This document shows positions 44,807 through 63,314 of a stretch of DNA of 64,000 bases, in pieces. Position 1 is the first letter of the stretch; every line of letters starts with the position of its first letter. Location: NCBI RefSeq assembly GCF_900116555.1, contig NZ_FPAT01000002.1, positions 248,001 through 312,000 on the forward strand. The letters run 5' to 3'. Under the pieces are notes generated by a model. The model made no database searches and was not told the origin of the DNA. It was given only the letters and a program-made list of their open reading frames with translations. The position numbers and the translations under genes are program-made. The stretch comes from Actinopolyspora lacussalsi subsp. righensis (lineage in GTDB: Bacteria; Actinomycetota; Actinomycetes; Mycobacteriales; Pseudonocardiaceae).

Positions 44807-45405
<599 letters not shown>

Positions 45406-46684: not shown

Positions 46685-49429
46685 GTGCCGGATCACGTGC
46701 CACCAGTGGCCGACTTACGGTTCTGGGGCAAGGAACGCGGCCTGGGCGGCGCCCGCTACCCGGTGGCGTGCCACGGGCTCGACGCGGCGGCGATGCTGCG
46801 CTGCCTGTGGCGGGAATACGTCTCGCCCGGCCTGCGGGCGCGGATAGCCGAACTCCTCGAACTGTCCGAGGACGAGGCCCGCCGACTGCTGGAGTTCTGG
46901 GCCGCCGCCCACGACATCGGCAAGATCACGCCCTCCTTCCAGTCCCAGGTGGAGATCCCTTCGGGCTACGACTCGGACGACGTGACCGCTCCCCACGACG
47001 AGGCCACGCAGCACGCGCTGTGCCCGTTGCTGATCGAACTCGATTATCCCAAGAGGTTCGCCAAGTGGGCGGCACAGCTGCTCGGCGGCCACCACGGTCG
47101 GTTCACCGAGCTCAACCGGGAGTGTCATTCCCAGGTGAAGGCTCGCGCCCTGGGGCTCGGCGAGGAGGAATGGGCACGGCAGCGCGCCGACACGCTGCGC
47201 GTCTGGCGGGCGGTACTCGAACCGCCCGTGCCCAGTAGTTTCGACACGGCCGCCGCGAACGTGGTCACCGGACTGGTGATACTCGCCGACTGGCTGGCGA
47301 GCCGGATTCCGTACGTGCTGAAACGGTTGCCGGACGTCCCGGAACGGGGCGACGTGTCGTCGCTGGGCTCGTTCTTCCACGGCTCGCTTGCCGAGGCGCC
47401 CGCCGTGGTGGCCGAGGCGGGACTCGCACCGCTGCGACTGCGTTCGGGTTCCTTCGCCGAGGAATTCCCCGAGTTCCCCGCCAACGAGCTGCAACGCGAC
47501 ATCGCCGAGCGGCTGCCGAGCTCGCTCGGCCCCGGCGGGCTGCTCATGATCTCCGCACCCACCGGTTTCGGCAAGACGGAGACGGCGCTGCACGCGGCAC
47601 GCCGCATGTCCGAGGTCACGGGCACCTCCGGCCTGTTTTTCGCGCTGCCGACGATGGCCACCACCGAGCACATGTTCAAGCGCATCGCCCGATACGTGAC
47701 CACGAGAGGGAGCGAGCCCAACTCGCAGGCGATGCTGCACGGCATGGCGTGGCTGAGCCCGGTGGAGGAGATGCTGCGCGAGGAGATGAGCCGTGCCTCG
47801 GTAAGCGGTGCGGACTCGACCCTGGTGCACTGCGCGGAATGGCTGCTGGGCGCCAAGCGCGGGCTGCTGGCCGGCGCCGGAGTGGGCACGATCGACCAGG
47901 CGCTGCTCTCGGTGCTTCCCACCAGGCACAACGCGCTGCGCATGTTCGCGCTGACCGGCAGGACCGTGGTGATCGACGAGGTGCACGCCTTCGACGAGTA
48001 CATGCGGACCCTGCTGTACGTGCTGCTGCGCTGGCTCGGCTACTGGAACGTGCCCGTGGTGCTGCTCTCGGCCACGCTGCCCGCGCCGCTGGCCACCCAA
48101 CTCGCCGCCGCCTACCGCGGCGACAGAGCGGGAACCGAGGAGCGGATCACGGTCCCCTATCCCGGTTGGGTCTACATCGGACACGGTGAGCCGGTTGTTC
48201 CGCGTCCGGTGCCGTTTCCCGACGAGCAGCGTCGGAGGTTGGCGGTGTCCTCCCGTGCCGTCGAGATCCGCGACGGTGAGCCGGACCGGATGCCCGTGCT
48301 GCGGCGGGCTCTTACGCCGTTGGTCGAGGACCGGGGAACCGCGCTGGTGCTGTGCAGCACGGTGGCGCACGCCCAGCGCACGTGGCGGCTGCTGCGCGAG
48401 CACCTCGAAGGCACCGGAGTGGAGCTGCGGCTGCTGCACGCCCGGTTCCCGATACACGTCCGCGAGTCCGTCACCGAGGAGCTCACAGCGCGGTTCGGCA
48501 AACCGACCGAGGAAGATCCGAAGGCGGGCAGAGTCCGGGAGCGTACGATCCTGGTCGCCACCCAGGTCGTGGAGCAGAGCCTCGACGTCGACTTCGACCT
48601 GGTGATAACCGATCTCGCGCCGGTCGAGCTGCTGTTGCAACGCGCGGGCAGGTCGCAACGGCACCCGGCGCTGAACCCGCTGCGGCCGGAGTGGGCCGAT
48701 CCGAATCGCGGTGGGACGCGGGAACTCGTGGTGCTGACCTCGTGAAACGACAAGGGGCCGCCCGGGGCCTGGGCGGCGGTGTATCCCACCGCGAGCCTGG
48801 TTCGCGCGCACCGGTTGCTGGACGAGCACGCCGAGAGCGGCATCCTGGTGCCGGAGGACGTCCAGCGGTTGGTGGACCGGGGCAATCCGGCCGCCGGGGA
48901 CAAGGGTGATCTCGAACTGATCCGTGATTTCGAGGAGGCGGAGACCCGCAGGCAGGCCGACGAGATGATCAAGCGCTCGGAGGGCAAGCGAGTGGGAATA
49001 CCCCGGCCGCGCGGGTTCAAGGCATTGAACGAGTTGTCGGACGGGTTGCTTCCGGAGGAGAGGGCGAGCACGCGGTTCCAGGCCGATTCGGAGCGCGGGC
49101 TGCCGTACTTCGTGGGGGCTGACGGAGTGCCTCGGCTGGACGGGCCGGAAGGTCCTGCGTTGCCCCGGCCGAGCGACGGGAAGCTCTCCCGCGAGGAGTT
49201 GATTTCGGTGATGCGGCGTTCCGTGCCGATGCCGCGCGGGCCGTTGTCGTCGGTGCCGCCCGATCGGCTGCCGAGGTTGCCCCGGCCGTGGTGCGACATC
49301 TGGCCGCTTGGGGAGCTGGTGGCGCTGGAGCACCCCGTTTCCGAGCGTGGGAAGGCCGCTCCGGCGCGGGTCGGCGAGCGGATGTTGTGGTTGGACGACG
49401 ATGTCGGGCTGGAGGAGGTGGCGGAGTGA
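46685..49429 (+). pseudogene. cas3: cas3 (type I-E CRISPR helicase-nuclease) interrupted by an in-frame stop
   Basis: Cas3 unwinds and degrades DNA marked by Cascade. The gene would encode 914 residues: HD nuclease (AAHDIGK near 76, GGHHGRF near 136), SF2 helicase with Walker A APTGFGKTE near 292 and VIDEVHAFDE near 431, QRAGRSQRHP near 651, and the C-terminal domain. TGA at 48743-48745 stops it at codon 687. The reading frame continues without any shift: the codons after it read GPPGAWAAVYPTASLVRAHR, typical Cas3, up to the true end. It is therefore a nonsense change, not a frameshift. A restart at a GTG (48779) has no good binding site. The start has GGAGG 5 nt upstream. No other cas gene follows. 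Confidence 0.9.
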
Positions 49430-49506
49430 ACTCGATCGCGCCCGTCGTCCGGGTTCGATCCTTCGATGTGGTCTTCGGATCGGGTGGTTCCCCGTTGGCA
49501 CGGCGC

Positions 49507-49551
49507 TTTGAAAACGTGCGGCGGGGGTTGTAACGTCGCAGTTCGCAGAGG
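49507..49551 (+). promoter_or_regulatory. CRISPR leader-like sequence 1
   Basis: Core TTGAAAACGTGCGGCGGGGG then TTGTAACGTCGCAG and TTCGCAGAG, directly before the first repeat. The same ordered blocks precede the five other repeat loci. Confidence 0.75.
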
Positions 49552-49641
49552 GTGCTCTCCACGTGTGTGGAGGTGGACCGCGGGCCCAGGATGAGAAAAT
49601 CCGCGCGCTGATGTGCTCTCCACGTGCGTGGAGGTGGACCG
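49552..49641 (+). CRISPR. Mini CRISPR array 1 (two repeats, one spacer)
   Basis: Two 29-bp repeats (49552-49580 and 49613-49641) starting GTGCTCTCCACG and ending GTGGAGGTGGACCG surround a 32-bp spacer. Repeat size, spacer size and the internal hairpin CTCCACG.GTGGAG are those of type I-E systems of actinobacteria. The array begins 122 bp after the end of cas3. Confidence 0.92.
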
Positions 49642-49775
49642 TCACGGTTATCACGGCATGATAGCCAAGCGGTGACCAGACTGGATTCTCGGAACGGACC
49701 GACGACTTGAGTGATCCCGCCACCGATTCGGGAAGCCGTCGACGAATGCTCGGACGAGCCGCGTATCACTGTCGT
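49642..49775 (+). pseudogene. Remnant of the trailer-antitoxin-toxin unit (third copy)
   Basis: The first 30 bp match the conserved trailer that follows arrays 2 and 4 (CACGGTTA.CACGGC.TGATAG). After a deletion, GGATTCTCGGAACGGA and CGACGACTTGAGTGATCCC match the 3' part of the antitoxin gene at 56479, and GTCGACGAA...GGACGAGC matches the toxin gene interior. No complete gene is left. It shows that a third copy of the unit once followed array 1. Confidence 0.7.
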
Positions 49776-49801
49776 CATCAGCTCATTCGGCTAAGGTGGT
49801 G

Positions 49802-50008
49802 ATGATGAAAGCGAAATGGCTGTTCGTGTTCGGTCTGGCCGGAATGACCGTGTCGGCTTCCGCGTTGATGTTGCTCATACCGTCGCTGTTCGACTCGGGC
49901 GAGCAGGGCAACTTCTGGGGTATTGGGGTGCTCGCGTGTCTCGCCGTGGTCTTCGCGGTGGGGATGTTGTACTGGCGTCCATCGACTTCGAGTTCGGACG
50001 GCGGATAG
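49802..50008 (+). CDS. Small membrane protein
   Basis: A 68-residue protein with two hydrophobic helices (KWLFVFGLAGMTVSASALMLLI and FWGIGVLACLAVVFAVGMLYW) joined by a short acidic loop, and a Ser/Asp tail. AAGG lies 5 nt before the ATG used. I do not recognise the family. It stands between the remnant unit and a decayed toxin-antitoxin pair, and could be an orphan from acquired DNA. Confidence 0.55.
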   Translation: MMKAKWLFVFGLAGMTVSASALMLLIPSLFDSGEQGNFWGIGVLACLAVVFAVGMLYWRPSTSSSDGG

Positions 50009-50144
50009 CCCCCGGGCTGGCCCCGTGAAGGTCGTGGCAGAGCCCAGAGATCCCGCTGAGCGGCGCTCTCTGCGGGGGTGGAGGCGTCCGTGAGTGTCTG
50101 TGAGGCTGTTCGTGCCTCTTCGAGTTTCGCACTGGTTTGAAACC

Positions 50145-50342
50145 ATGGAACGTGCTCTGGAGGTTCGGTTCTCCGACCTGGTCAACCAGCCCAAGGACAC
50201 GCTCGCCAAGCTCGATGCGAGCCGTAGCCGTCATCTGTGGCTGCGCTGCCGTGACGACGAGGACCTGGTGCTGACCACCGCTGCCCGGGCCGAGCAGGAG
50301 AACGAGGTCGTCTCGGCCACCGAACCTCTCGACAACGTATGA
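50145..50342 (+). CDS. Phd-like antitoxin, apparently short
   Basis: About 65 residues, from MERALEVRFSDLVNQPKDTL on, resembling 'prevent-host-death' type antitoxins of actinomycetes; the segment DEDLVLTTAARAEQENEVVSAT is characteristic. Relatives usually continue for dozens of residues, while here the protein ends soon after (EPLDNV), so the 3' part may be deleted. The stop overlaps a downstream ATG (ATGA), as in intact pairs. No ribosome binding site is clear; a GTG at 50094 is an alternative start. The partner toxin is broken. Confidence 0.5.
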   Translation: MERALEVRFSDLVNQPKDTLAKLDASRSRHLWLRCRDDEDLVLTTAARAEQENEVVSATEPLDNV

Positions 50343-50598
50343 GCGGTGGCGGAACCCGACGTAAGCAGCGAGTCGCCCCACCAGCGGCGCAGGATCAGTG
50401 GGAGATTCGGTGCGGTACCAGTGAGGCCGGTAAAGGCTGGGACGAACTGTGTCAACAGGCTCCTGCGAGGGGCGCGAACTGCCCGCGTGGCAGATCGAAG
50501 TCACCAGCGGTGGACGCGTTTGGTATCTCCTCGACGAACAGCGCCGCACCGTGTGGCTCACTCACGCCGGTACGGGACACCCCAAGACGACCGAGTAG
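50339..50598 (+). pseudogene. Broken RelE-like toxin gene
   Basis: The first half reads, after an unrelated opening, QWEIRCGTSEAGKGWDELCQ, the N-terminal pattern of actinobacterial RelE-like toxins. From about 50470 the matching frame shifts and reads WQIEVTSGGRVWYLLDEQRR and TVWLTHAGTGHPKTTE up to a TAG, the normal C-terminus. The middle of about 35-40 codons is missing. The deletion plus frameshift should abolish the toxin. The family pattern is from memory of such toxins and not a database match. Confidence 0.6.
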
Positions 50599-50773
50599 CC
50601 GTGTCGTCCACCACGTCATGGACGCTGGCACGAGACGGTCTCGTGGTCCACACGAGATTCCGCTTTGGTTAGCCTCCGGCTAGATGCCGTTGAAGGTGAT
50701 TTTTCGGATGGCTGGGTAACTCGATGTAGTGTTCGCTCATGCGGTGTTGCCAGGAAGCTGGTTCGTGACGCAA

Positions 50774-50842
50774 GGAGGTTTCTCGTTGGTTTGGCGGTGT
50801 GAAAACGTGCGGCGGCGGTTGTAACGTCGCAGGTCGCAGAGG
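50774..50842 (+). promoter_or_regulatory. CRISPR leader-like sequence 2
   Basis: GGAGGTTTCTCGTTGGTTTG, GCGGTGTGAAAACGTGC and GTTGTAACGTCGCAGGTCGC directly before array 2. Nearly identical over about 70 bp to leaders 3 and 5; leaders 1, 4 and 6 share only the last 45 bp. Confidence 0.75.
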
Positions 50843-50932
50843 GTGCTCTCCACGGGCGTGGAGGTGAACCGCTCATCTCCTGCGTCTGGTGCCTCGGGGT
50901 GTGGTGCTCTCCACGTGCGTGGAGGTGGAACG
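50843..50932 (+). CRISPR. Mini CRISPR array 2 (two repeats, one spacer)
   Basis: Repeats at 50843-50871 (variant GGGCGTGGAGGTGAACCG end) and 50904-50932 (last bases GGAACG, a degenerate terminal repeat) with a 32-bp spacer. The trailer that follows is conserved after arrays 1 and 4. Confidence 0.9.
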
Positions 50933-50963
50933 GCACGGTTACACGGCGTGATAGTCAAGCGCT
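50933..50963 (+). other. Conserved 31-nt trailer, spacer-sized
   Basis: GCACGGTTACACGGCGTGAT then AGTCAAGCGCT follows the degenerate last repeat. The identical sequence follows array 4 (56337-56367) and a variant follows array 1. It is almost spacer length and is followed by GTGCTCGCC, which resembles a repeat start (GTGCTCTCC). It may be a fossil spacer or a functional element near the antitoxin promoter. Confidence 0.5.
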
Positions 50964-51074
50964 GTGCTCGCCTCATCCAAGCAGAAGGTCTGCGGGAGAA
51001 GAACTCGCGCGGTCGGGTGGTTTCTGGCTGGTCAGGGGTGCGGTGCGGTTGGTGGTGTTGGCATACTTCGTGCT

Positions 51075-51356
51075 GTGTTCTGGATGAATTCGGAGACTCT
51101 GGCGGTCGAGCGTGACGCGGACGATGTTCGGGAGGCGTTGCGGTTGTACGGCGAGCCGGATGAGCTCATGAAGTTCGATCTGGAGCGGGAGTACGGGTTC
51201 ACCGAGGAGCGGTTCACGGAGTGGTGGGCCACTGCCACCAGTGCCGCGAACCCGCCGACCGAGCGCGACAGGGAGATGATGCGCCGCCTGTTCGAGGACG
51301 GCGACGACACTGGTTTCTACATCCAGAATGACGACGGAAGTTTCACACTGCAGTGA
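51075..51356 (+). CDS. Putative antitoxin, copy A
   Basis: A 93-residue acidic protein of unrecognised family, nearly identical to the product at 56479 over residues about 18-73 (ALRLYGEPDELMKFDLEREY, GFTEERFTEWWATATSAANP). It overlaps the RelE-like toxin gene by 4 bp (GTGA), the classic antitoxin-then-toxin order, which is the basis of the call. The GTG aligns with the ATG of the copy; Met-4 is an alternative. The C-terminal 18 residues differ from the copy, as expected of a toxin-contacting tail that has diverged. Confidence 0.65.
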   Translation: MFWMNSETLAVERDADDVREALRLYGEPDELMKFDLEREYGFTEERFTEWWATATSAANPPTERDREMMRRLFEDGDDTGFYIQNDDGSFTLQ

Positions 51357-51592
51357 CGGCTCAATACCTCATTCGCTGGAGCGAACACGCGAGTCAGACG
51401 TTCAGAGATCTTCCGCGATCAACCCAGAACGCGATCAGAAAATGTACGAACGAACTCTGCGTCGATCCGCACACGGGAACCTATGACAAAGGTCGTTACC
51501 AGTGGAAGACTGCCTTTGACGGTGGTTTGGTCATGTACACCGTTGGTGAACGGATGTTGTTGATCGACGTGCTGCGCATCACCGCGCTCTGA
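51353..51592 (+). CDS. RelE/ParE-like toxin, copy A
   Basis: A 79-residue basic protein with the small RelE/ParE outline: RWSEHASQTFRDLPRSTQNAI (helix 1-2), then GTYDKGRYQWKTAF and GGLVMYTVGERMLLIDVLRITAL (the beta sheet with the terminal strand). RelE-type toxins cleave mRNA at the ribosome, while ParE types hit gyrase; which applies is not determined. It is coupled to the antitoxin by a GTGA overlap. The product at 56781 is 78 residues with an identical last 25. Confidence 0.75.
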   Translation: MTAQYLIRWSEHASQTFRDLPRSTQNAIRKCTNELCVDPHTGTYDKGRYQWKTAFDGGLVMYTVGERMLLIDVLRITAL

Positions 51593-51770
51593 GGTATCGC
51601 GAGGAGCCCCAGCACCGCGTTCGTGGGACTGTGCGTGATGTTCGGTGGGAACCATCGAGGTCCGGTGTGGTTCGGTTCCGGTGAAGTATCGCGGGAATTG
51701 GTGTGCCCGGTCTCCTGTGGCTGGTTCGTGGATACTGTGGTGCGGTCCGGCCGTTGGCCTGTGATCGTGG

Positions 51771-51841
51771 GTGGAGGTTTCTCGTTGGTTTGGCGGTGTG
51801 AAAACGTGCAGCGAGGGTTGTAACGTCGCAGGTCGCAGAGG
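51771..51841 (+). promoter_or_regulatory. CRISPR leader-like sequence 3
   Basis: Same blocks as leader 2 (GGAGGTTTCTCGTTGGTTTG, AAAACGTGCAGCGAGGGTTG, TAACGTCGCAGGTCGCAGAG) directly before array 3. Confidence 0.75.
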
Positions 51842-51992
51842 GTGCTCTCCACGGGCGTGGAGGTGAACCGACGTACAGGAGTGCCTACGTCTCCTCCTCC
51901 GGGTGCTCTCCACGGGCGTGGAGGTGAACCGAACACGTCCCGCTTCCTGCGGGCCGTCCGCGAGTGCTCTCCACGTGCGTGGAGGTGGACCG
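51842..51992 (+). CRISPR. Mini CRISPR array 3 (three repeats, two spacers)
   Basis: Repeats at 51842-51870, 51903-51931 and 51964-51992; the first two have the GGGCG/GAACCG variant and the last the GTGCG/GGACCG form. Both spacers are 32 bp. It is the largest array in the window and ends 71 bp before the dnaE start. Confidence 0.93.
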
Positions 51993-52063
51993 CCCTGTGA
52001 GCGAGGACCGCGCGCGGGGACTAACGTTGCCCCGTAAGTAGTGGGAGCCTCGAAGGGGACGCC

Positions 52064-55000
52064 GTGAGTCAGAGCCAGTTCGTGCATCTTCACGTGCACA
52101 CCGAGTTTTCGATGCTGGACGGTGCGGCCAAGCATGACAAGCTGTTCAGCGAGGTCGCTCGGCTGGAGCAGCCCGCTGTGGCTATGACCGATCACGGCAA
52201 CATGTTCGGCGCGCACAGCTTCTACACTCGGGCGCAGAAGGCCGGGGTCAAGCCGATCATCGGGATCGAAGCCTACGTGGCTCCCGCCAGTCGTCATCAC
52301 AAGAAGCCGGTGTTCTGGGGTAGCCGGGCGACCGGGAAGAAGGACGCTGACGACAAGGAAGTCGGCGGGGACGTCTCCGGCGGCGGTGCCTACACGCACA
52401 TGACGTTGCTCGCGCAGAACTCGACCGGGCTGCGCAACCTGTTCACGCTGTCGAGCATAGCCAGCTTCGAGGGGTTCTTCCGCAAGCCGCGGATGGATCG
52501 GGAGCTGATCAGCCAGTACTCCGAGGGGATCATCGCCACGAGCGGGTGCCTGGCGGGCGAGGTGCTCACCCGGCTGCGGCTGGGTCAGAAACAGGAAGCG
52601 TTGCAGGCGGCCTCGGACTACCGCGACATTTTCGGGCAGGACCGGTTCTTCATCGAGGTCATGGACCACGAGATCGAGATGGAGCGTGGTATCCGGCCGG
52701 AACTGCTCGACATCGCCAACCGGCTGGGGCTGCGGACGGTGGCCACCAACGACAGCCACTACGTCACCGATGACCAGGCCGGTCACCACGATGCGCTGCT
52801 GTGCCTGCAAACCAAGGCGACACTGGCGGACACGAACCGGTTCCAGTTCCAGGGCGGCGGGTACCACATCAAATCCGCCGAGGACATGCGCGATTACTGG
52901 GACTCCGAAGTCCCGGGGGCGTGCGATGCCACGCTGGCGATCACCGAGATGGTCGAGGACTACGAGGAAGCGTTCGCCGAGACCAACCGGATGCCGCAGG
53001 CGAAGATCGAGCCGGGGCGAACCGAGGAAGAGGTACTGCGGGAGGAGATCGAAAGCTACATCCCCTCACGCTTTCCCGAGGGGTTGACCCAGCGGTACCG
53101 CGAGCAGTTGGACTGGGAACTGAAGGTCATCACCGAGAAGGGCTTCAGCTCCTACTTCCTGGTGGTCGGCGACATGGTGCGCTGGGCCAAGGAGCAGGGC
53201 ATCCGGGTCGGTCCCGGGCGAGGCAGCGCGGCCGGGGCGCTGCTGAGCTACATCCTGCACATCATCGACCTCGACCCCATCAAGCACGAGCTGCTGTTCG
53301 AACGGTTCCTCAACCCCGAGCGCAACTCCCCACCGGACATCGACATCGACTTCGATGAACGCCGCCGCGAGGAAGTCATCGCCTACGCCAAGGACAAGTA
53401 CGGCGAGGAGAACTTCGCGAAGGTCATCACCTACGGCACTATCAAGACGAAGGCGGCGTTCAAGGACGCGGCGCGGGTGCATCTGGGCCAGCCCGGTTTC
53501 GCGGTCGCCGATCAGTTCTCCAAAGCGCTGCCCGCCCCCGCCGAGGCCGAGGACATTCCGCTGTCGGGCATCGTCGACCCGGAGCACGAACGCTACCCGG
53601 AGGCATCCGAAGCGCGGGCGCTGATCGAGAACGACGAGACGATGGCCAAGATCTTCGAGACCGCCCGAGGGCTCGAAGGACTTGTCCGCAACGCCGGGGT
53701 GCACGCCTGCGCGCACATCATCAGCCGTGAGCCGCTGTTGGACGTGCTGCCGTTGTGGAAGCGCGACGACGGCGAGATCATCACCGGCTGGGACGGGCCG
53801 CAGTGTGAGGCCGTCGGTCTGCTGAAGATCGATATTCTCGGCCTGAACTTCATGACGATCATCGACGACACCGTCAAGATGATCAAGGCCAACCACGGTG
53901 TCGAGATCGAGCCGCTGTCGCTGCCGCTGGATGACTCCGGCACGTTCGACACGCTGGCGAGTGGTGACAGTCTGGGCCTGTTCCAGATCGAAGGCGGCGG
54001 GATGCAGACGCTGCTGAAGCGGATGCGGCCGAGTGGGTTCGACGACCTCGTGGCCTGCGTATCGCTGTATCGACCCGGCCCGATGGACGTCAACGCGCAC
54101 CTGGACTACGCCGACCGCAAGAACGGGCGCAAGCAGGTCGAGGCGATTCACCCCGAGCTGGCCGACGCGCTGGAGCCCATCCTCGGCGACACCTACGGGC
54201 TGATCGTGTACCAGGAGCAGGTGATGCGAATCGCCCAGCAGCTCGCCGGGTACACGCTCGGACAAGCGGATTCGCTGCGCAAGGCGATGGGCAAGAAGAA
54301 GAAGGACGTCATTGCCGCGGAGCACCCCAAGTTCCTCAGCGGGATGGAAGAACGCGGGTTCACCCGCGACTCCGCGCAGGCGTTGTGGGATGTGATCCTG
54401 CCGTTCGCGGGATACGCGTTCAACAAGTCGCACGCGGCGGCCTACGGGCTGGTGTCGTACTGGAGCGGCTACCTCAAGACGCACTACCCGGCCGACTACA
54501 TGGCCGCGCTGCTGACCGCGTTCTCGCACAACAAGGACAAAACAGCGGCGTACCTGTCGGAATGCCGCCGGATGGGGATCACCGTGCTGCCGCCGGATGT
54601 GACCGAATCCGGGGTGATGTTCAGCGCCACCCCGGACGGGCGGATCCGCGTCGGGCTCGGAGCGGTCCGCAACGTCGGCACCGGCGTAGCCGAGAGCATC
54701 ATCGCCGCCCGCAATGAGACCGACTCCGGCACGTTCACCGGATTCGCGGACTTCCTGTCCAAGGTGCCGCCGCACGTGTGCCAGAAACGCGTCGTGGAAT
54801 CCCTGACGAAAGCGGGCGCGTTCGACGAGCTCGGCTACACCCGCCAAGGGCTCACGGCGGTGCACGAGGACGCGGTCGAAGCGATGACGAGCCTGAAGAA
54901 GTCCGAGTCGCTCGGCCAGTTCGACCTGTTCGGCGGCGGCAACGACGCCGCCGCCGAGGAAGCCAGCCCGCTGGCGCATCTCGCGATCGACGACGAGGAG

Positions 55001-55654
55001 TGGCCGCGCAAGCAGAAACTCGCCTACGAACGCGAGATGCTGGGACTCTACGTCTCGGCCCACCCCCTCGACGGAGCCGAGGGGATTCTGCGCAAACACG
55101 CCAAACCCATCGCCACACTGAAGAACGAGGCACCCGCCGAAGGGGAGGTCCACGTGGCGGGGCTGATCACCAACGTGGACAAGCGGGTGAACAAGAAGGG
55201 TGAGCCGTGGGCGATCGTCACGGTCGAGGACTACGACTCCTCGATCGAGGCGCTGTTCTTCCCCAAGTCCTACTCGGTGGTCGGCGAGGAGCTGGTCACC
55301 GACAGCGCCGTGGCGGTCAAGGGGCGCGTGAACTATCGGGACGAGACCATGTCGATCTTCGCGGACGGGCTGGTCACCCTCGACATCACCTCGGCGGAAC
55401 ACGACCCCACCCCCGTCGCGGAACGGGGCGGGGCGTTCGTGCTGCGGGCCGACGCGTTCAAGCTCGACAAGGAGACGGCGCTGGACCTGCGCACCAGCCT
55501 GCGGGCGCACGCCGGATCGACCCCGGTGCGGGTGATCGTGGCCGGAACCCGCGAGGGAAGGGTGGAACTCCCCGACTACCCGGTCGAGATCTCCCCCGGG
55601 CTCATGGGCGAGATCAAGGGGCTGCCCGGAATCACCGTGCAATCCGCCGGATGA
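52064..55654 (+). CDS. dnaE: DNA polymerase III subunit alpha (DnaE1 type)
   Basis: The replicative polymerase catalytic subunit, 1196 residues, the normal DnaE1 length. Order: PHP domain with HLHVHTEFS near residue 8 and intact metal ligands (proofreading in actinobacterial DnaE1), palm with GPGRGSAAGALLSY near 383 and PDIDIDFDE near 424 (catalytic Asp pair), fingers, KKKKDVI and PFAGYAFNKSHAAAYG, and the OB fold near 1030 (VHVAGLITNVDKRVNKKGEP). AAGGGG lies 5 nt before the GTG. Its neighbours are CRISPR and toxin-antitoxin units, not the housekeeping genes usually near dnaE, so it may be an extra copy. Confidence 0.95.
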   Translation: MSQSQFVHLHVHTEFSMLDGAAKHDKLFSEVARLEQPAVAMTDHGNMFGAHSFYTRAQKAGVKPIIGIEAYVAPASRHHKKPVFWGSRATGKKDADDKEVGGDVSGGGAYTHMTLLAQNSTGLRNLFTLSSIASFEGFFRKPRMDRELISQYSEGIIATSGCLAGEVLTRLRLGQKQEALQAASDYRDIFGQDRFFIEVMDHEIEMERGIRPELLDIANRLGLRTVATNDSHYVTDDQAGHHDALLCLQTKATLADTNRFQFQGGGYHIKSAEDMRDYWDSEVPGACDATLAITEMVEDYEEAFAETNRMPQAKIEPGRTEEEVLREEIESYIPSRFPEGLTQRYREQLDWELKVITEKGFSSYFLVVGDMVRWAKEQGIRVGPGRGSAAGALLSYILHIIDLDPIKHELLFERFLNPERNSPPDIDIDFDERRREEVIAYAKDKYGEENFAKVITYGTIKTKAAFKDAARVHLGQPGFAVADQFSKALPAPAEAEDIPLSGIVDPEHERYPEASEARALIENDETMAKIFETARGLEGLVRNAGVHACAHIISREPLLDVLPLWKRDDGEIITGWDGPQCEAVGLLKIDILGLNFMTIIDDTVKMIKANHGVEIEPLSLPLDDSGTFDTLASGDSLGLFQIEGGGMQTLLKRMRPSGFDDLVACVSLYRPGPMDVNAHLDYADRKNGRKQVEAIHPELADALEPILGDTYGLIVYQEQVMRIAQQLAGYTLGQADSLRKAMGKKKKDVIAAEHPKFLSGMEERGFTRDSAQALWDVILPFAGYAFNKSHAAAYGLVSYWSGYLKTHYPADYMAALLTAFSHNKDKTAAYLSECRRMGITVLPPDVTESGVMFSATPDGRIRVGLGAVRNVGTGVAESIIAARNETDSGTFTGFADFLSKVPPHVCQKRVVESLTKAGAFDELGYTRQGLTAVHEDAVEAMTSLKKSESLGQFDLFGGGNDAAAEEASPLAHLAIDDEEWPRKQKLAYEREMLGLYVSAHPLDGAEGILRKHAKPIATLKNEAPAEGEVHVAGLITNVDKRVNKKGEPWAIVTVEDYDSSIEALFFPKSYSVVGEELVTDSAVAVKGRVNYRDETMSIFADGLVTLDITSAEHDPTPVAERGGAFVLRADAFKLDKETALDLRTSLRAHAGSTPVRVIVAGTREGRVELPDYPVEISPGLMGEIKGLPGITVQSAG

Positions 55655-55665
55655 GCTGTCGAGAA

Positions 55666-55696
55666 CGGGGCTGCCCGCGTTGTGTGGGCAGCCCCG
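55666..55696. terminator. Hairpin terminator after dnaE
   Basis: An 11-bp perfect stem (CGGGGCTGCCC and complement) with a 9-nt loop, 11 bp past the dnaE stop; it also closes the convergent mini-ORF pair. Confidence 0.8.
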
Positions 55697-55714
55697 TCGT
55701 GGGTCGTGCGCGGT

Positions 55715-55819
55715 TCAGCGGGGTATCGACCCCGTCCCGTTGCGCGAATCGCAGTGATCGTCGCGACGACGATCCCACCCGTTACCGTCGCGGTCCGGGC
55801 ACGTCAGCGTATCCGTCAT
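55715..55819 (-). CDS. Mini-ORF (34 aa) coupled to the Cys-rich mini-ORF
   Basis: A 34-residue charged peptide beginning MTDTLTCPDRDGNGWDRRRD and containing two Cys, then Gly/Asn/Pro-rich. Its ATG overlaps the stop of the 27-residue reading frame upstream (TGATG), which suggests coupled translation. It may be a small signalling or structural peptide; no family is recognised. Confidence 0.45.
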   Translation of the reverse strand: MTDTLTCPDRDGNGWDRRRDDHCDSRNGTGSIPR

Positions 55820-55902
55820 CAGTTCTCGCCGCTTCCGGAACAGGTCGCGCAGTCCGGATCATTTCCGGAGCAGTTCGGGCAGGGCTCGCCTTCCATACCC
55901 AT
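55819..55902 (-). CDS. Cys-rich mini-ORF with two CxxC pairs (27 aa)
   Basis: A 27-residue peptide with CPNC and CATC pairs separated by about nine residues, a minimal zinc-ribbon pattern, surrounded by Gly/Ser/Asp/Glu. AAGGAG lies 8 nt before the ATG, an excellent site for so short a frame, and the next mini-ORF starts at its stop. Small zinc-ribbon proteins of this size exist in actinomycetes; the role is unknown. The reading frame was found by eye. Confidence 0.6.
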   Translation of the reverse strand: MGMEGEPCPNCSGNDPDCATCSGSGEN

Positions 55903-56062
55903 GACAGATTCTCCTTACCCGTAACGATCGCTGTTCGTACGTGTCGCGGACAGGCCAGCTGATCGAACCTGCCGTGGTGCTGATCCCCTGACGTTCATCG
56001 ACGTTATTCACGGGTGGGACGATCACGGTCACCCGAATGGCAGTCGCGGCGGCGCCGACGTG

Positions 56063-56194
56063 ATGCGGGAACGACCGGAACCCAAGACCGCCGAGCGGGA
56101 CTTTTCGCGTCTTCGGCTACTGTGGCTGGACGTAGTGCGAAGGGAATGGGTGGATACTTCCCTGGATCAGGGCGCGTTGCCGGCGCTGCGATGA
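56063..56194 (+). pseudogene. Possible gene remnant (43 codons)
   Basis: A reading frame continuing MRERPEPKTAERDFSRLRLL and WLDVVRREWVDTSLDQGALPA has protein-like composition (amphipathic helices), and the same frame stays open for over 40 codons upstream without an in-frame start codon. It may be the tail of a lost gene, truncated where the CRISPR/toxin-antitoxin block B begins. The family is not recognised. Confidence 0.3.
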
Positions 56195-56260
56195 CTCATG
56201 ACCGGAATCGGGTGAGAAGTACCGAACTCGCATTCGAGGTGCGTTATCCCGATGTCGCGA

Positions 56261-56307
56261 TGGCGTGAGAATGTGCGGCGGCGGCTTTGACATCGCGGGT
56301 CGCGGAA
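56261..56307 (+). promoter_or_regulatory. CRISPR leader-like sequence 4 (degenerate)
   Basis: TGGCGTGAGAATGTGCGGCG, then GCGGCTTTGACATCGC, then GGGTCGCGGAA: the same blocks as the other leaders with several substitutions, directly before a single repeat. Confidence 0.6.
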
Positions 56308-56336
56308 GTGCTCTCCACGTGCGTGGAGGTGGAGCG
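56308..56336 (+). CRISPR. Single CRISPR repeat (locus 4)
   Basis: A lone 29-bp repeat with degenerate end (GGTGGAGCG), followed by the 31-nt trailer also found after array 2. It is array-like only by its leader and trailer; no spacer-repeat unit is left. Confidence 0.7.
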
Positions 56337-56478
56337 GCACGGTTACACGGCGTGATAGTCAAGCGCTTTGCTCGCCTCATCCAAGCAGAAGATCTGCGGG
56401 AGAAGAACTCGCGCGGTCGGGTGATTCCTGGCTGATCAGGGGTGCGGGGCGGTTGATGGTGTCGGCATACTCCGGGGC

Positions 56479-56781
56479 ATGTTCCGGATGAATTCTGGGC
56501 CCCTGGTGGTCGAGCGTGACCTGGACGACATTCGGGAAGCGTTGCGGTTGTACGGCGAGCCGGATGAGCTCATGAAGTTCGATCTGGAGCGGGAGTACGG
56601 GTTCACCGAGGAGCGGTTCACGGAGTGGTGGGCCACTGCCACCAGTGCCGCCAATCCGCCGACCGAGCGTGACCGGGAAATGATGCGCCGCCTGTTCGAG
56701 GAAGGCGACGAAACCGGATTCTCGGAACGGATCGACGACTTGAGTGATCCCACCACCCCCCCGATTTGGTTGCGGCACTGA
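56479..56781 (+). CDS. Putative antitoxin, copy B
   Basis: A 100-residue acidic protein paralogous to the product at 51075, identical over most of residues 18-73. The C-terminal tail is different and longer (FSERIDDLSDPTTPPIWLRH); a fragment with this same tail survives in the remnant after array 1, so copy B resembles that lineage. The stop overlaps the toxin ATG by 1 bp (TGATG). A GTG-free, clean ATG start opens MFRMNSGPLVVERD. Function inferred from gene order with a RelE-like toxin. Confidence 0.65.
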   Translation: MFRMNSGPLVVERDLDDIREALRLYGEPDELMKFDLEREYGFTEERFTEWWATATSAANPPTERDREMMRRLFEEGDETGFSERIDDLSDPTTPPIWLRH

Positions 56782-57017
56782 TGGCTCGATACACGATTCG
56801 CTGGGGCGAACAAGCCGATCGGACTTACAACGACCTCCCGTCACGGATCCAAAGAGTTGTCGACGAACGATTGGACGAGCTGCGCGTCGAACCGCGCACC
56901 GGAACTTACGACAAAGGTCGTGACCAGTGGAAAGCCGCTTTCCACGGTGGTTTGGTCATGTACACCGTCGGCGAGCGGATGTTGTTGATCGACGTGCTGC
57001 GCATTACCGCGCTCTGA
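56781..57017 (+). CDS. RelE/ParE-like toxin, copy B
   Basis: A 78-residue basic protein: RWGEQADRTYNDLPSRIQRVV helices, then TGTYDKGRDQWKAAF and the terminal strand pair, identical to copy A over the last 25 residues. The N-terminal half differs more from copy A (roughly half of the residues), which could give different antitoxin pairing. Coupled to the upstream antitoxin by a TGATG overlap. Confidence 0.75.
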   Translation: MARYTIRWGEQADRTYNDLPSRIQRVVDERLDELRVEPRTGTYDKGRDQWKAAFHGGLVMYTVGERMLLIDVLRITAL

Positions 57018-57199
57018 GGTTTCGCGAGGATTTTCGGCACGGCACTCGCGGGTTTGTGCGGGATGCTCAGGGATGAGCTCGCCGAAGTCCGGTGTGGTTC
57101 GGTTCTGTTGAAGAGTCACGGAAATTGGTCGGGTCCGGTGTCGTGTAGTCGGTTCGTGGATACTGTGGTGCTGTCCGGCCGTTGGCTTGTGATCGTGGG

Positions 57200-57298
57200 C
57201 GGAGGCGTCTCGTTGGTTTGGCGGTGTGAAAACGTGCAGCGAGGGTTGTAATGTCGCAGGTCGCAGAGGGTGCTCTCCACGTGCGTGGAGGCGACCTC
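57200..57298 (+). CRISPR. Leader 5 and single degenerate repeat (locus 5)
   Basis: A leader like 2 and 3 (GGCGTCTCGTTGGTTTGGCG onward, 57200-57269) precedes one repeat at 57270-57298 that starts GTGCTCTCCACGTGCGTGGA but whose last eight bases have changed. No spacer follows, so the locus is eroded. Confidence 0.7.
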
Positions 57299-57344
57299 CG
57301 AATTCCTTCGGACCGCTCGTGCGTCCGCTGCCGTGAGGGACGCT

Positions 57345-57369
57345 GTGAATTTCGCGGGAAATCGACAGG
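57345..57369 (-). repeat. Copy of dispersed palindrome
   Basis: GTGAATTTCGCGGGAAATCG core, two changes from the consensus, 17 bp past the 3' end of the VOC-family gene. Confidence 0.6.
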
Positions 57370-57386
57370 GGCGGCTCTGATTCGGC

Positions 57387-57794
57387 TCAGCCGGGACGGT
57401 GGTGCACGTACTCGATGATCGAGTCGTCCGGATGTCGTACCGTCACCCCACTGCCCACCGGGGCGCGGAACGGCTGCTGCACCAGTTCCGCACCTTCCGC
57501 GCGCAGTCGTGCCAGGTAGGGCTCGATGTCCGGCACGAGCAGCGTCCCGACCGTGGCGCGGAACGGTTGCAGCGCTTCCGCCGAACCGCCGATGAGCAGG
57601 AAGCCTCCCACGGCGGTCAGCGTCAGGTTCTTCTCCGGATAGGGCATGACCATGTCCCGCCGGAGCCCCAGCACCCTCTCGTACCACGAGGTGGTCGCTT
57701 CGAGATCGGCGATATCCACGAAGACTCTCACGAACGTTCTCGGCTGCTGAAGGGCGCGGGAATCCGTGAGTTCACGCCAGAGTTGATCGAGCAA
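57387..57794 (-). CDS. VOC-family (glyoxalase/bleomycin resistance fold) protein
   Basis: A 135-residue single VOC module pair. RTFVRVFVDIADLEATTSWYERVLG opens the fold, and the GSGVTVRHPDDSIIEYVHHRPG end carries the usual metal-ligand Glu. Such proteins are isomerases, dioxygenases or drug-binding proteins; the substrate is open. The TTG start has AAGGA 7 nt upstream. It is divergent from an MmyB-type regulator, a common pairing in which the regulator controls the neighbour. Confidence 0.88.
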   Translation of the reverse strand: MLDQLWRELTDSRALQQPRTFVRVFVDIADLEATTSWYERVLGLRRDMVMPYPEKNLTLTAVGGFLLIGGSAEALQPFRATVGTLLVPDIEPYLARLRAEGAELVQQPFRAPVGSGVTVRHPDDSIIEYVHHRPG

Positions 57795-57916
57795 AAGGAT
57801 TCCTTCGGTTGGCTTCCGGCTCGGACACCCCGAGCCTCCTGCCGTGAACCGCAGTCAGCCAGCGGCCGATTCGTACTGTTACCGACACTGACAGGCTCAT
57901 GGAACGTGGAGGGGCG

Positions 57917-58753
57917 ATGCCCGCTACGACGATCCGACGCGAACTAGGTGCGTTCCTGCGGGCCGCGCGCGCTCAGCTCACCCCGGCCGATCTCGGACTG
58001 AGCGTGCACGGCAGTCGCCGGGTCCGTGGCCTGCGACGCGAAGAAGTCGCTGCCGTCTCCGGGATCGGGTTGTCGTGGTACACCTGGCTGGAACAAGGCA
58101 GGGTCGCCACCTCGCGGCAGGTGCTCGACGCGTTGGCGAGCACGCTGCGGCTGGGTGAACAGCAACACCGGCACGTGCTCGTGTTGGGTGGATTCCAGCC
58201 TGAACCCCAGGAAAGTACCGATTCCGCCCGGCTTTCGGCGTTGCTGGCCGAGTGGGCGCGGAGCCCGGCGCTGCTGCTCGACCACCGGTTCGACGTGCAC
58301 GCGGTCAACGAGGTGCACCACGTGGTGTGGCAGCTCATTCCCGAGGTGCGGGAAGGAACGAACCTGCTGCTCGCGATGGCGACCGAGCCAGACTGGCGCG
58401 ACGTGCTCGTCGACGAGCGGGACACGCTGTACGAACTCTTCCTGCGTTTCCGAGCTCAGGCGGACCTACACCCCACCGACCCGAGATGCCACGAGGTGCT
58501 GCGAACGCTGCGGAACAGCCGCCCCGACCTGGCTCACTACTGGGAGTGCCGCGACGTCCGCGATTCCGGAACATGGCCGGTGGTCGTCACCGATGGGAGC
58601 GGAGGCAGGCCGCGATTCGACTTCACGCTGCTGCGTACCGATGGGGCGTCCGGCTCGCTGCTCGTGCAGGTGCCGGGTAACGATGAAACCCGGGAGTGGG
58701 TGCGCGGGCGAATTTCACCGGGCGAGGTTCAAAACGTGCGGCGGCGGTTGTAA
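57917..58753 (+). CDS. MmyB-type XRE transcriptional regulator with CRISPR-leader-derived C-terminus
   Basis: A 278-residue regulator: XRE helix-turn-helix (about 12-70, REEVAAVSGIGLSWYTWLEQGR) and an MLTR ligand-binding domain (about 100-265, LLDHRFDVHAVNEVHHVVWQL, PDLAHYWECRDVRD). The last nine codons (VQNVRRRL and the stop) are the CRISPR leader core read as protein. GGAGG precedes the ATG by 4 nt; an ATG six codons earlier lacks a site. It probably regulates the divergent VOC gene. Confidence 0.9.
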   Translation: MPATTIRRELGAFLRAARAQLTPADLGLSVHGSRRVRGLRREEVAAVSGIGLSWYTWLEQGRVATSRQVLDALASTLRLGEQQHRHVLVLGGFQPEPQESTDSARLSALLAEWARSPALLLDHRFDVHAVNEVHHVVWQLIPEVREGTNLLLAMATEPDWRDVLVDERDTLYELFLRFRAQADLHPTDPRCHEVLRTLRNSRPDLAHYWECRDVRDSGTWPVVVTDGSGGRPRFDFTLLRTDGASGSLLVQVPGNDETREWVRGRISPGEVQNVRRRL

Positions 58754-58770
58754 CACCGCGGTTCGCGAAG
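58728..58770 (+). promoter_or_regulatory. CRISPR leader-like sequence 6, overlapping the MmyB gene end
   Basis: TTCAAAACGTGCGGCGGCGG, TTGTAACACCGCGG, TTCGCGAAG directly before array 6; the TAA of the regulator lies inside the leader. Confidence 0.7.
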
Positions 58771-58860
58771 GTGCTCTCCACGTGTGTGGAGGTGGACCGT
58801 CGATCCCCGCGAGGATTCCTCCTATGTGGTGGTGCTCTCCACGTGTGTGGAGGTGACCCG
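58771..58860 (+). CRISPR. Mini CRISPR array 6 (two repeats, one spacer)
   Basis: Repeats at 58771-58799 and 58832-58860 (the last ending GGTGACCCG) around a 32-bp spacer. No trailer of the conserved type follows; the rest of the gap to the ABC operon (58861-59163) holds no supported gene. Confidence 0.9.
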
Positions 58861-59163
58861 GGTTTGCCGCAGGCGCTTCCCGCGCCGAGCCTGTCATTTC
58901 TCCACCGGCCTTGTGCTGCCTCGGGAGGCCCTCTCACCCTCAGCCAGTCAACCCCTCAACCGCGTTCGTGCCACCGAAGAGGCGGCGGACGACTCGGGAA
59001 AACCGTGACGGGTCCGCTGTCCGATAGGGGAGTGTGCGGTACGCGAGGGACGGACTCGTGGCAGGGCGAGCGAGGGTGTTCGGGACGACTCCCGTCGACA
59101 CGCCACGGCCACGAGTGTTGTTCGCCGGCCGCACTGCGTCGTCGGTGTGGACGGAGATTCGAC

Positions 59164-59934
59164 ATGGTGACTGTCAGGGTGGACGGCTTGCGAGCGCGAT
59201 ACGGCGGGAAGCTCGCGCTGGACGGGGTAAACCTGCGTATGGGGACGGGCATCCACGGTTTGCTCGGACCCAACGGTGCGGGAAAGACCACACTGATGCG
59301 CACGCTGGCGACAGTGGCACGACCGAGTGAGGGCAGCGTTGAGCTGCTCGGGCATGACACCGCGGAACAGGACGGCCGGAAGCGAGTGCGTCGGCGGTTG
59401 GGATACCTGCCCCAAACATTCGGTTACTACCCGGGATTCACCGTGGCCGAGTTCGTGGAGTATATGGCCTGGCTCAAGGAAGTGCCCAAGGACCGTGTGC
59501 CGGAGGCGGTCGAGCGTGCGATCGAGCGGGTCGGTCTGGCCGATCGGGTGGGCTCCAAACTGAGGAAACTCTCCGGAGGAATGCTGCGTCGCGCGGGGAT
59601 CGCACAAGCGATCGTCAATGACCCGGAGCTGCTGTTGCTCGACGAGCCGACGGCCGGACTCGATCCGGAGCAACGGGTGGAGTTCCGGGAACTGCTGCGT
59701 GACATCGGCTCGACCAACACCGTCGTCGTCAGCACACACCTGGTCGAAGACGTCTCCATCGCCTGCGACGAAGTCACCCTGTTCGACAGCGGGAAGCTGA
59801 TTTTCCGTGGAACACCGAACGAATTGGCCGAGTTCGGCACTTCCGAGGCGGATGACGCCCGCGGCGGGGACACCGCTCTGGAACGCGGCTACACCGCGGC
59901 GCTGCGCGCCTCCCGGGAAAGGACGGTGGCATGA
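59164..59934 (+). CDS. ABC transporter ATP-binding protein
   Basis: A 256-residue ATPase of the CcmA/BcrA group: Walker A GPNGAGKTTL near residue 39, Q-loop LPQTFGYYPGF, signature KLSGGMLRRAG and Walker B LLLLDEPTAGLDP, with the His switch in VVSTHLVED. The signature lacks the usual Gln (LSGGM). It is the first gene of a five-gene overlapping run with two membrane proteins, an ECF sigma factor and its anti-sigma factor, so it likely powers an exporter or sensor linked to envelope stress. Confidence 0.93.
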   Translation: MVTVRVDGLRARYGGKLALDGVNLRMGTGIHGLLGPNGAGKTTLMRTLATVARPSEGSVELLGHDTAEQDGRKRVRRRLGYLPQTFGYYPGFTVAEFVEYMAWLKEVPKDRVPEAVERAIERVGLADRVGSKLRKLSGGMLRRAGIAQAIVNDPELLLLDEPTAGLDPEQRVEFRELLRDIGSTNTVVVSTHLVEDVSIACDEVTLFDSGKLIFRGTPNELAEFGTSEADDARGGDTALERGYTAALRASRERTVA

Positions 59935-61226
59935 CCGCACGTGTGCTTTGGCACGAGATTCGCCGTAGCGGCCTGCCGCTCTGGATCACTCCGCTGTTGC
60001 TTCTCGTCTCGGGACTGGTGTTCACCCGGACTCTGCTGCGGACGGGAGGACAGCGTTTGGAGTGGGCCACCTCGATTTTCTACGACATGACGCCGATGGT
60101 CGTGCTGGCCAGCACACTGGCTTTGGCGGTCGCGGCGTGGCGGGCCGGGCGTGAACGCCGAAGAGGCGTAGCTGAACTGATCGAATCCACTCCGCGCGCA
60201 CGTTCGCAGCGTGCGTTGCTCTCCTGGATTTCCGTGACGATCTGGCCCGTCGTTTCCTGCTTGCCCGCCGTAGTGGCATTCGGGTCGCTCAGCCGCGAGG
60301 CGGTTTCCGGTCCACCACTGTTCGGGGTACTGACCGCGGCTGTCTCCACAGTGGTCGCCTACGCCGCGCTCGGTTTCGCCGTAGGTACTTTTGTTCCCGG
60401 CAGACTCACGACTCCGGTGGCTGGTGTCGTCTCCTTCGTTGTCATGATCGCTCTCGGCTCGTGGGTACCCCACGGTTTGCTGTCCGTTGTTCCGCAGCCC
60501 ACCTACGGCACCATCGCGACCAATCGTTCCGGTGTCGGACTCTGGGATCGACCGGTGTGGTGGTTCGCACCCGCTGCCGCGCTGTGGTTCGTGGCGCTGA
60601 CTGTCGCGCTGCTGGTAGTGGCTACGGCGCGACGTCGCCCGCTCGCGGTAGTGCCGTCAGTACTCGCGGTGCTCCTCGCGATCCCGTTGACGCAAACCCA
60701 GGTTTGGCGTATCGACACCGCGAGCCCGCTGTTGAGCTGCAGTGACGGCAGTGTGCGTGTTTGCGTGCCGAACGAGATCGGTGTGGCTCCGAACGCTGTG
60801 GCCGCCTCGACGAAACCGGTCCGAGCACGTCTGGCCGACCTTCCCACCGTCGCCCCGCTGGGAGCCGTCGATTCGAGTTCAGCCAGTGCGTATGTCTGGC
60901 CGCAGAACTGTCGTGCTTACTTGGAACGGATCAGCTGCAATTCGCCGCGTCCTTCGACGGCCGGTGAGAAGCTCGCCGAGCGAATTTCCGGCTGGCAGTG
61001 TTCGTCATCGTCCTCACCGGGAACACCCATGTACACCTCTCCGGCGCCGCGATTGGAACGCGGAGTGCGGGACTGGCTGCTCGGGCGGACGGGTGATTCC
61101 GCGTCCGGGATCGTCCGACACCTCGCCACGCTTCCCGACGACGAACGACACGAATGGCTGAGCCGCTATCTGCTCGCCGCTGAGCGGTGTGACGTTTCCG
61201 CTGTCACGGGATTGCGGGGTTCCTGA
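59931..61226 (+). CDS. ABC-2-like membrane protein of the sigma-factor operon
   Basis: A 431-residue membrane protein. Six hydrophobic helices are visible in the first 260 residues (from LPLWITPLLLLVSGLVFTRTL to PLAVVPSVLAVLLAIPL), followed by an extracytoplasmic domain with four Cys (LLSCSDGSVRVC, NCRAY, ISC). The ATG overlaps the ATPase stop (ATGA). It probably is the permease half of the exporter; the exposed Cys-rich domain could sense the outside. Confidence 0.8.
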   Translation: MTARVLWHEIRRSGLPLWITPLLLLVSGLVFTRTLLRTGGQRLEWATSIFYDMTPMVVLASTLALAVAAWRAGRERRRGVAELIESTPRARSQRALLSWISVTIWPVVSCLPAVVAFGSLSREAVSGPPLFGVLTAAVSTVVAYAALGFAVGTFVPGRLTTPVAGVVSFVVMIALGSWVPHGLLSVVPQPTYGTIATNRSGVGLWDRPVWWFAPAAALWFVALTVALLVVATARRRPLAVVPSVLAVLLAIPLTQTQVWRIDTASPLLSCSDGSVRVCVPNEIGVAPNAVAASTKPVRARLADLPTVAPLGAVDSSSASAYVWPQNCRAYLERISCNSPRPSTAGEKLAERISGWQCSSSSSPGTPMYTSPAPRLERGVRDWLLGRTGDSASGIVRHLATLPDDERHEWLSRYLLAAERCDVSAVTGLRGS

Positions 61227-61825: not shown

Positions 61826-61879
61826 GCGTCCCGCGAAAACCACGACGGATATTTCATCCGATACAGGAGTGTGCGGGCC

Positions 61880-63255: not shown

Positions 63256-63270
63256 TATGTCCGGGTCCCT

Positions 63271-63293
63271 GTGGATTTCGCGAGAAATTGACG
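63271..63293 (-). repeat. Copy of dispersed palindrome
   Basis: GTGGATTTCGCGAGAAATTG core, 15 bp past the anti-sigma stop and 22 bp from the TetR stop, between convergent genes. Confidence 0.7.
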
Positions 63294-63314
63294 CGCCCCT
63301 GGCCGGGTACAGCC

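Follow-up and report, generated by a model that had tools for sequence, protein, structure and literature searches.

The window analysed here, a 64,000-nucleotide stretch of the genome of Actinopolyspora lacussalsi subsp. righensis, contains what we read with good confidence as a decayed type I-E island of clustered regularly interspaced short palindromic repeats (CRISPR) and cas genes. Several short arrays in it have a leader of their own, and a phage-related dnaE gene (DNA polymerase III alpha) has lodged within the island and replaced the native dnaE. The window lies at C12:248001-312000 of the genome called G000 (4.92 Mb, 22 contigs, 99.94% complete). It was compared with G005, a single-contig genome listed as the same species, with four close congeners (G001, G003, G007 and G009, the sisters) and with two outgroups (G002 and G004). 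CRISPR cluster counts refer only to stretches fetched from six genomes and are lower bounds. The gene names XRE, DUF397, tsaE, enolase family, SDR, RibD-like, P450, rluD, TetR, metallo-hydrolase and ABC transporter were given by eye.

Repeats and leaders of the six window loci

Eleven type I-E-like repeats of 29 bp lie in the window in six clusters, with a period of 61 and five 32-nt spacers. All 11 agree with 23-24 of 24 core positions, and the best of 20 Markov-1 shuffles of the window reached 18. The initial annotation of this DNA, which had described six loci of one to three type I-E repeats with 32-bp spacers, was thus correct on this point. The loci, together with a relic, are as follows.

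49511..49641, + strand: locus 1, leader 49511-49551, repeats 49552-49580 and 49613-49641, one spacer; G005 has the same site with another spacer
50063..50091, + strand: weak repeat relic, 18 of 24 core positions, equal to the shuffle maximum and alone not significant
50802..50932, + strand: locus 2, leader 50802-50842, repeats starting at 50843 and 50904, one spacer; the G005 site has 12 repeats and an identical terminal repeat
51801..51992, + strand: locus 3, leader 51801-51841, repeats starting at 51842, 51903 and 51964, two spacers; the G005 site has 6 repeats
56268..56336, + strand: locus 4, degraded leader and one repeat (56308); upstream flank of the type of array units behind XRE-DUF397 genes
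57229..57298, + strand: locus 5, leader and one hybrid repeat (57270), a repeat-recombination scar by comparison with G005 and G001
58731..58860, + strand: locus 6, leader 58731-58770, repeats starting at 58771 and 58832, one spacer; called by repeat and leader scoring

A leader with a consensus of about 41 bp stands directly 5' of the first repeat in all six clusters. Its scores out of 41 were 38 (at 49511), 40 (50802), 39 (51801), 31 (56268), 38 (57229) and 34 (58731), and 20 Markov-1 shuffles of the window gave at most 28. By score the locus 4 leader is barely above chance, and its position adjacent to a repeat supports the call. The claim that the same leader blocks precede each locus holds in that all six have a leader; that of locus 4 is degraded and that of locus 6 differs. 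No leader scoring at least 26/41 was found in 13 outgroup stretches (247 kb). The six clusters share one orientation and have similar repeats. Palindromic repeats of about 29 bp, spacers of about 32 nt and an adjoining leader are the features by which type I-E arrays are recognized, and all were found here. Rfam gave no match in the window.

The relic at 50063 has a better-kept counterpart in G007 (L208:4814), before the same gene. A palindrome-like stretch of 32 nt lies directly 3' of the terminal repeat at loci 1, 2 and 4. Upstream of toxin-antitoxin (TA) pairs it is found at 50933-50964 and 56337-56368 of the window and at L059:10308-10339 of G005; it is near perfect at locus 2 of G005 and degraded in the window. 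A TA pair follows loci 2 and 4, and TA remnants only follow locus 1.

Loss of cas genes relative to a strain of the same species

The order in G005 is cas3, an array of 2, an array of 12, a TA pair, an array of 6 and dnaE, then a single repeat, a TA pair, an array of 9 and cse1-cse2-cas7-cas5-cas6e-cas1-cas2. After cas2 come an array of 7, an array of 6 and an ABC transporter gene, which is also next in the window. Seven repeat clusters lie within this one locus and more elsewhere in G005. Its cse1, cse2, cas7 (the part lying in L060), cas5, cas6e, cas1 and cas2 pass NCBIfam cut-offs, while for its cas3 only the generic Cas3 domain cut-offs are passed. The window lacks the block from cse1 to cas2, and the sole cas gene of the I-E set there is an interrupted cas3.

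46679..49429, + strand: cas3 (type I-E), in-frame TGA at 48743-48745; Pfam Cas3_HD and Cas3-like_C, PADLOC Cas3e

This gene aligns without gaps to cas3 of G005, which is open, at 97.2% identity. A genome-wide search of G000, made for I-E cas1 (TIGR03638) and not for cas2, gave no match. A second I-E operon, consisting of cas3, cse1, cse2, cas7, cas5 and cas6e without cas1, lies on contig C22 (L027, G000:C22:636000-655000, at 2118-10259), and no direct repeats were found in the 19 kb around it. A cas6e-like gene above the family cut-off is present at L028:9786-10661 (G000:C12:86025), with no other cas gene nearby in the gene list as read by eye.

Arrays of one to three repeats had been taken as the native state of the locus, a view at odds with G005, which has up to 12 repeats and the full cas set. 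G005 has the longer leader-bearing clusters, with a median of 6 (n=9) against medians of 2-3 in the five other genomes (n=34); the difference gave p=0.004 in a Mann-Whitney test and p=0.015 with leaderless clusters included, the clusters not being independent. At loci 1-3 the leader sites and the flank 3' of the last repeat are common to G000 and G005, and the terminal repeat, identical at locus 2, differs by 1 base at locus 1 and by 2 at locus 3.

Spacers were compared at equal length in a set of 110 from the fetched stretches of the six genomes (12 from G000, 55 from G005). None of the five window spacers matched another spacer of the set, those of G005 included, at 24 or more bases. Since the leader sites and trailing flanks of loci 1-3 are shared and the spacers are not, orthology holds for the sites but not for their contents. 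Only two matches between genomes occurred in the whole set: a 33-nt spacer beside the last repeat on contig C5 of G000 and in G007 (33/33), and a spacer of G005 (L062) against one of G003 (L184; 29/32).

Joins between arrays

The repeat of locus 5 is a hybrid. From its leader through the first 22 repeat bases, locus 5 resembles G005 array 5, the TA-side leader and repeat (57201-57291), and 57270-58794 corresponds to G001, starting at the terminal repeat that precedes the glyoxalase gene there (94.4% over 1.5 kb). The two matches overlap by 22 bp of repeat. Such a hybrid is the scar expected when two CRISPR repeats recombine and the intervening DNA is lost, and the position of the join is occupied in G005 by the cas operon. 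A second join of arrays is seen on contig C5 of G000, with one array series vs two in G005, split there by a RibD-like gene. Arrays are absent around the RibD-like gene on C7 of G000 and C29 of G001; they flank it in G005 and G007, where it lies near tsaE, and in G003, where it lies close to an SDR gene.

A foreign dnaE in the island

52064..55654, + strand: dnaE (DNA polymerase III alpha), foreign type, the only intact copy found in the genome

The product aligns over residues 4-1189 to DNA polymerase III alpha 7pu7, and the gene is the sole match at E <= 1e-100 in G000, as is its counterpart in G005. It is classed from its sequence as a full-length DnaE1-type replicative alpha subunit. Its identity to G006 is 68%, and to the seven remaining congeners 62-63%. 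Of the marker proteins, the metallo-hydrolase is 96, 95, 88 and 88% identical, and TsaE of G005 98, 98, 93 and 93%, to G001, G007, G003 and G009, respectively. The native site of dnaE lies between rluD and a P450 gene. The gene is complete there in G001, reduced to roughly its last 98 codons in G005 and to several fragments in G000, and has left no remnant in G006.

Two DnaE trees, of 30 and 23 rows, place the window and G005 copies with that of Saccharopolyspora sp. HNM0983 (100/100) and apart from those of G001-G004 and G007-G009. DnaE of Saccharomonospora phage PIS 136, added for the 23-row tree, joins the window and G005 copies (100/100). The first tree was built from 30 rows, after a motif filter had kept 34 of 90 loci; the second omits 9 of those rows and includes 2 new ones. 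The phage protein shares 68.1% identity with that of the window and 67-70% with most Pseudonocardiaceae copies in the tree. Because it is about equally near to most of these, the link to the phage rests on the tree and not on identity. The phage also has an annotated HTH_31 and DUF397 pair. DnaE of G006 falls with the HNM0983 group in the first tree (95/97) and with a plasmid copy in the second (80/94), so its placement is unsure. In G006 (L173, L198), dnaE, 68% identical to the window gene, also lies elsewhere and the native site holds no remnant, which is probably a second displacement of dnaE in the genus.

Full-length DnaE is likewise carried by phage PIS 136 and by a plasmid of Amycolatopsis sp. 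AA4 (61.9%), but in G000 no intact dnaE was found besides the window copy, the native gene being fragmented. A published report describes C-family polymerases as rare on plasmids (3%) and mostly DnaE2 there, and lists a few Actinobacteria with two DnaE1 (PMC3919608). Neither a dnaE within a CRISPR locus nor a swap for a phage-type copy was described in the literature searched by titles. Nargenicin-type resistance was considered as a reason for the swap and set aside.

The duplicated unit on either side of dnaE

The foreign dnaE sits between two copies of a unit made up of a terminal repeat, a TA-like pair, a leader and a first repeat.

50904..51866, + strand: duplicated unit copy 1, 963 bp
56308..57294, + strand: duplicated unit copy 2, same layout, 987 bp
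51084..51592, + strand: TA-like pair copy 1, antitoxin-like gene 51084-51356, toxin-like gene 51353-51592; mosaic
56479..57017, + strand: TA-like pair copy 2, native type

The two copies are 82.6% identical to one another. Between G000 and G005 each copy has about 96% identity, so the arrangement is older than the divergence of the two genomes. The initial annotation had proposed that leader-repeat units were copied as units, and this is largely borne out by the two window copies and by the leaders at 43 of the 53 clusters counted below. TA copy 2 is 95% identical to G001, 91% to G007 and 88% to G009 and G003, and TA copy 1 is 77-79% identical over its length to sister genomes. Copy 1 has diverged only over about 51260-51680, where its identity to G001 is 59-87%, compared with 91-99% for copy 2. 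The ends of copy 1 are mostly 83-97% identical to G001, one 75-column block being at 65%, and copy 2 is no better there. The diverged patch of about 400 bp covers the end of the antitoxin-like gene and the toxin-like gene and differs from both copy 2 and G001. The candidate explanation that a foreign TA pair and dnaE arrived as one block was rejected, given the narrow extent of this divergence and a 176-nt relic in G001 that is 90% identical to the start of the copy.

The TA genes had no match in Pfam (E 0.001) or PADLOC (E 0.01), and NCBIfam (E 0.1) gave one unrelated weak match. A fold model of the toxin had a mean predicted local distance difference test score (pLDDT) of 50.6, too poor for structure searching. 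We call these pairs putative TA systems from their gene layout and appearance.

The leader 3' of dnaE, at locus 4, has the DUF397-type unit flank described in the next section. Homologous recombination between units would be a simple account of how dnaE was inserted; duplication of the unit within the genome, with dnaE added separately, would be another. The genes between the loci had been suggested as cargo. For dnaE this stands insofar as a gene of foreign type was brought in and the native one is in fragments, while carriage by leader-repeat units would be a further step. It fails for the regulator, which together with the glyoxalase gene is a flanking gene common to G001, G007 and G009.

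Leader-array units across the genus

The leader pattern (<=3 mismatches) occurs in 6 of 297 sampled genomes of the family, all of this genus (1 of 46 genera), where it is present in 6 of 10 genomes. At least 53 repeat clusters were found in the loci fetched from these six, at least 43 of them with a leader score of 29/41 or more, a score reached by 47 of 54,000 random positions. The 10 clusters without a leader include the 7-repeat array after cas2 in G005. Among the neighbours of units outside the island are tsaE, an enolase-family gene and an SDR gene. Among 17 aligned secondary-site units, 11 share a flank consisting of the 3' end of a DUF397-like gene, a terminator-like stem and a leader extension, followed by the leader; 2 have a degraded version and 4 are without it. 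These counts were read by eye from the alignment, and several of the 11 are one site in different genomes. The starts of the DUF397-like genes differ from site to site. Of 13 DUF397 ends found by pattern, 10 lie 143-241 bp before a leader and 3 have no leader nearby (2 with the same end, 1 with another). The pattern was not found in 15 outgroup stretches, a thin control since it misses DUF397 genes. In Streptomyces, XRE-DUF397 pairs have been proposed to be TA systems or regulators (PMC10364602, PMC6262351).

The many units with shared flanks point to homologous recombination among units. A rival account is that the units are actively mobile, either by transposition or by off-target Cas1-Cas2 integration. 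The 43 or more leader-bearing clusters at several sites in six genomes would fit this, as would units behind different XRE-like genes and the 4 of 17 secondary-site units without the DUF397 flank, which show that flank homology does not explain every copy. However, the long flanks common to many units, whether DUF397 end, stem and leader extension or TA pair, are what homologous recombination predicts, and no transposase was noticed beside the units, although no search aimed at transposases was made. Cas1-Cas2 integration adds a repeat and a spacer, not a leader, and the earlier suggestion of leader-repeat insertion is unsupported. We consider active mobility unlikely.

The island site in sister genomes and outgroups

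44250..63338, no strand: whole island, defined by comparison with outgroups G002 and G004, where the site is empty; left edge within a few bases

In both outgroups the metallo-hydrolase gene (window 42881-44353) adjoins the TetR gene (63315-63914), and the DNA unaligned between the two matches is 205 and 233 bp in G002 and G004, respectively, vs 19.1 kb in the window. The empty site implies that the island was inserted in this clade or lost in the outgroups. The search of related genomes for empty sites, proposed earlier for each locus, succeeded for the whole island and gave none for any single array. The four sisters keep leaders and short arrays at the island site, which in G007 is split over two contigs. 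No cas operon was seen among the genes called at that site in the four. Matches to I-E cas1 lie at other sites only in G001, G003 and G009 and are absent from G007, and G009 retains a cas3 fragment of 343 aa.

History of the island and rival readings

The comparisons suggest the following history. In the ancestor, TA pairs and cas genes would have alternated with a number of separate arrays that each had a leader of their own, and leader-array units may have multiplied by homologous recombination, carrying flanks such as the DUF397 gene end or the TA pair with them. The common ancestor of G000 and G005 already held the phage-related dnaE in the position seen today, between two TA-leader-repeat units; however it entered, the foreign gene appears to have taken over, and the native dnaE is now in fragments. 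In the window strain, comparison shows that cse1 to cas2 and arrays are gone and that repeats of two arrays are joined at locus 5; this join may itself have removed the cas genes. The stop in cas3 is read directly from the sequence and may have come before or after these losses. Without cas1-cas2, arrays could presumably only shrink or stay short.

Several observations weigh against this reading. G001 keeps the two arrays of the locus 5 join apart, yet no cas genes are called between them, so cas loss may precede the join in the window lineage too. The polarity of decay is based on the G009 cas3 fragment and the leader remnants of the sisters, not on a reconstruction, and as no spacer is common to the two strains in the set compared, shrinkage was not directly seen. 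The C22 operon might process the window repeats. TA copy 1 is mosaic and therefore does not demonstrate one foreign segment from TA pair to dnaE. Finally, the G000 assembly is a draft, although the window is one contig.

It is also conceivable that the mini arrays are kept as regulators of the adjoining TA pairs, in a CreTA-like manner. The palindrome-like stretches after the terminal repeats of loci 1, 2 and 4, with TA pairs after 2 and 4, are in keeping with such a role. The local Cascade genes and the I-E cas1 are gone, though C22 carries a second Cascade, and the palindrome is degraded in the window; we rate this as quite improbable. That one continuous ancestral array was split by inserted TA pairs, dnaE and cas genes is very improbable in spite of the common orientation and similar repeats of the six clusters, since each cluster has its own leader (34-40/41 in five of six), the G005 arrays are separate and mostly end in their own diverged terminal repeat, and leader units occur at other chromosomal sites as well. 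The initial annotation had named a continuous array broken up in related strains as the case contrary to copying, and this was not seen in G005, with its several separate arrays.

Extending the favoured history of decay and dnaE replacement, dispersed leader-array units might form a recombination platform that moves cassettes from site to site and from lineage to lineage, one event having brought the phage-lineage dnaE that displaced the native polymerase, the essential gene now pinning what remains of the locus. We put this forward tentatively and think it possible but doubtful.

Multi-array I-E systems and array collapse are already known, and the foreign dnaE in the locus is the most surprising part. 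Type I-E systems typically have two or more arrays, for which duplication, horizontal gene transfer and splitting are listed as origins in the sections cited of one report (PMC12814883). The present locus resembles these in its 29-bp repeats, 32-nt spacers and the I-E cas set of G005; it differs in that G005 has TA pairs and dnaE between cas3 and cse1, and in that the window has lost the effector genes. Another report describes conserved trailer ends, deletions that run through repeats and the possible collapse of arrays (PMC8047081), whereas the join seen here links repeats of two different arrays, at a position taken up in G005 by the cas operon. Two strains of one species have a CRISPR-Cas locus with and without effector genes, with a join readable at the base level, and the strain set makes the origin and death of multi-array systems testable. 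A replicative polymerase gene is usually thought too embedded to swap; a phage-related replacement inside an immune locus is of relevance to genome evolution, phage-host conflict and replication.

Spacer targets and further array features

Exact searches of IMG/VR with the first 22 nt of each window spacer found none of the five, and a repeat pattern had no match there. A self-target scan of the 110 spacers against 144 overlapping fetched stretches (1.19 Mb), allowing <=5 mismatches outside arrays, gave a G001 spacer matching cas7, a G005 spacer matching dnaE, two array ends cut by locus borders and nothing else. The G001 spacer (L185:6401) matches cas7 of G005 at 31 of 32 positions, with AAG, a known E. 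coli type I-E motif, directly upstream. This sequence match fits self-targeting followed by cas loss in G001. Deletion of a cas cassette to escape self-targeting is cited in the part considered of PMC6990116, and G001 is similar in having this spacer and no cas genes called at the site. The window strain differs, with no such spacer among the 12 of G000; self-targeting was rejected as the cause of decay there on this count, most of the genome lying outside the scanned set.

Spacer 3 of L060:3604 in G005 matches dnaE coding DNA of G006 (30/32), Nocardiopsis (29/32) and the AA4 plasmid (28/32), and that of the host and congeners (26-27/32) and of phage PIS 136 (23/32) less closely. It suggests an encounter with some dnaE-bearing DNA, nothing beyond; with 6 mismatches to the host dnaE and 9 to that of the phage, it was rejected as a driver of the dnaE swap.

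Array 5 of G005 (L059:16502) contains a block duplication, spacers 1-2 being the same as spacers 3-4. At L022:11040-11245 and L061:6545-6761, in G000 and G005, a stretch of about 210 bp with a small open reading frame (about 60 aa) takes the place of a spacer between repeats.

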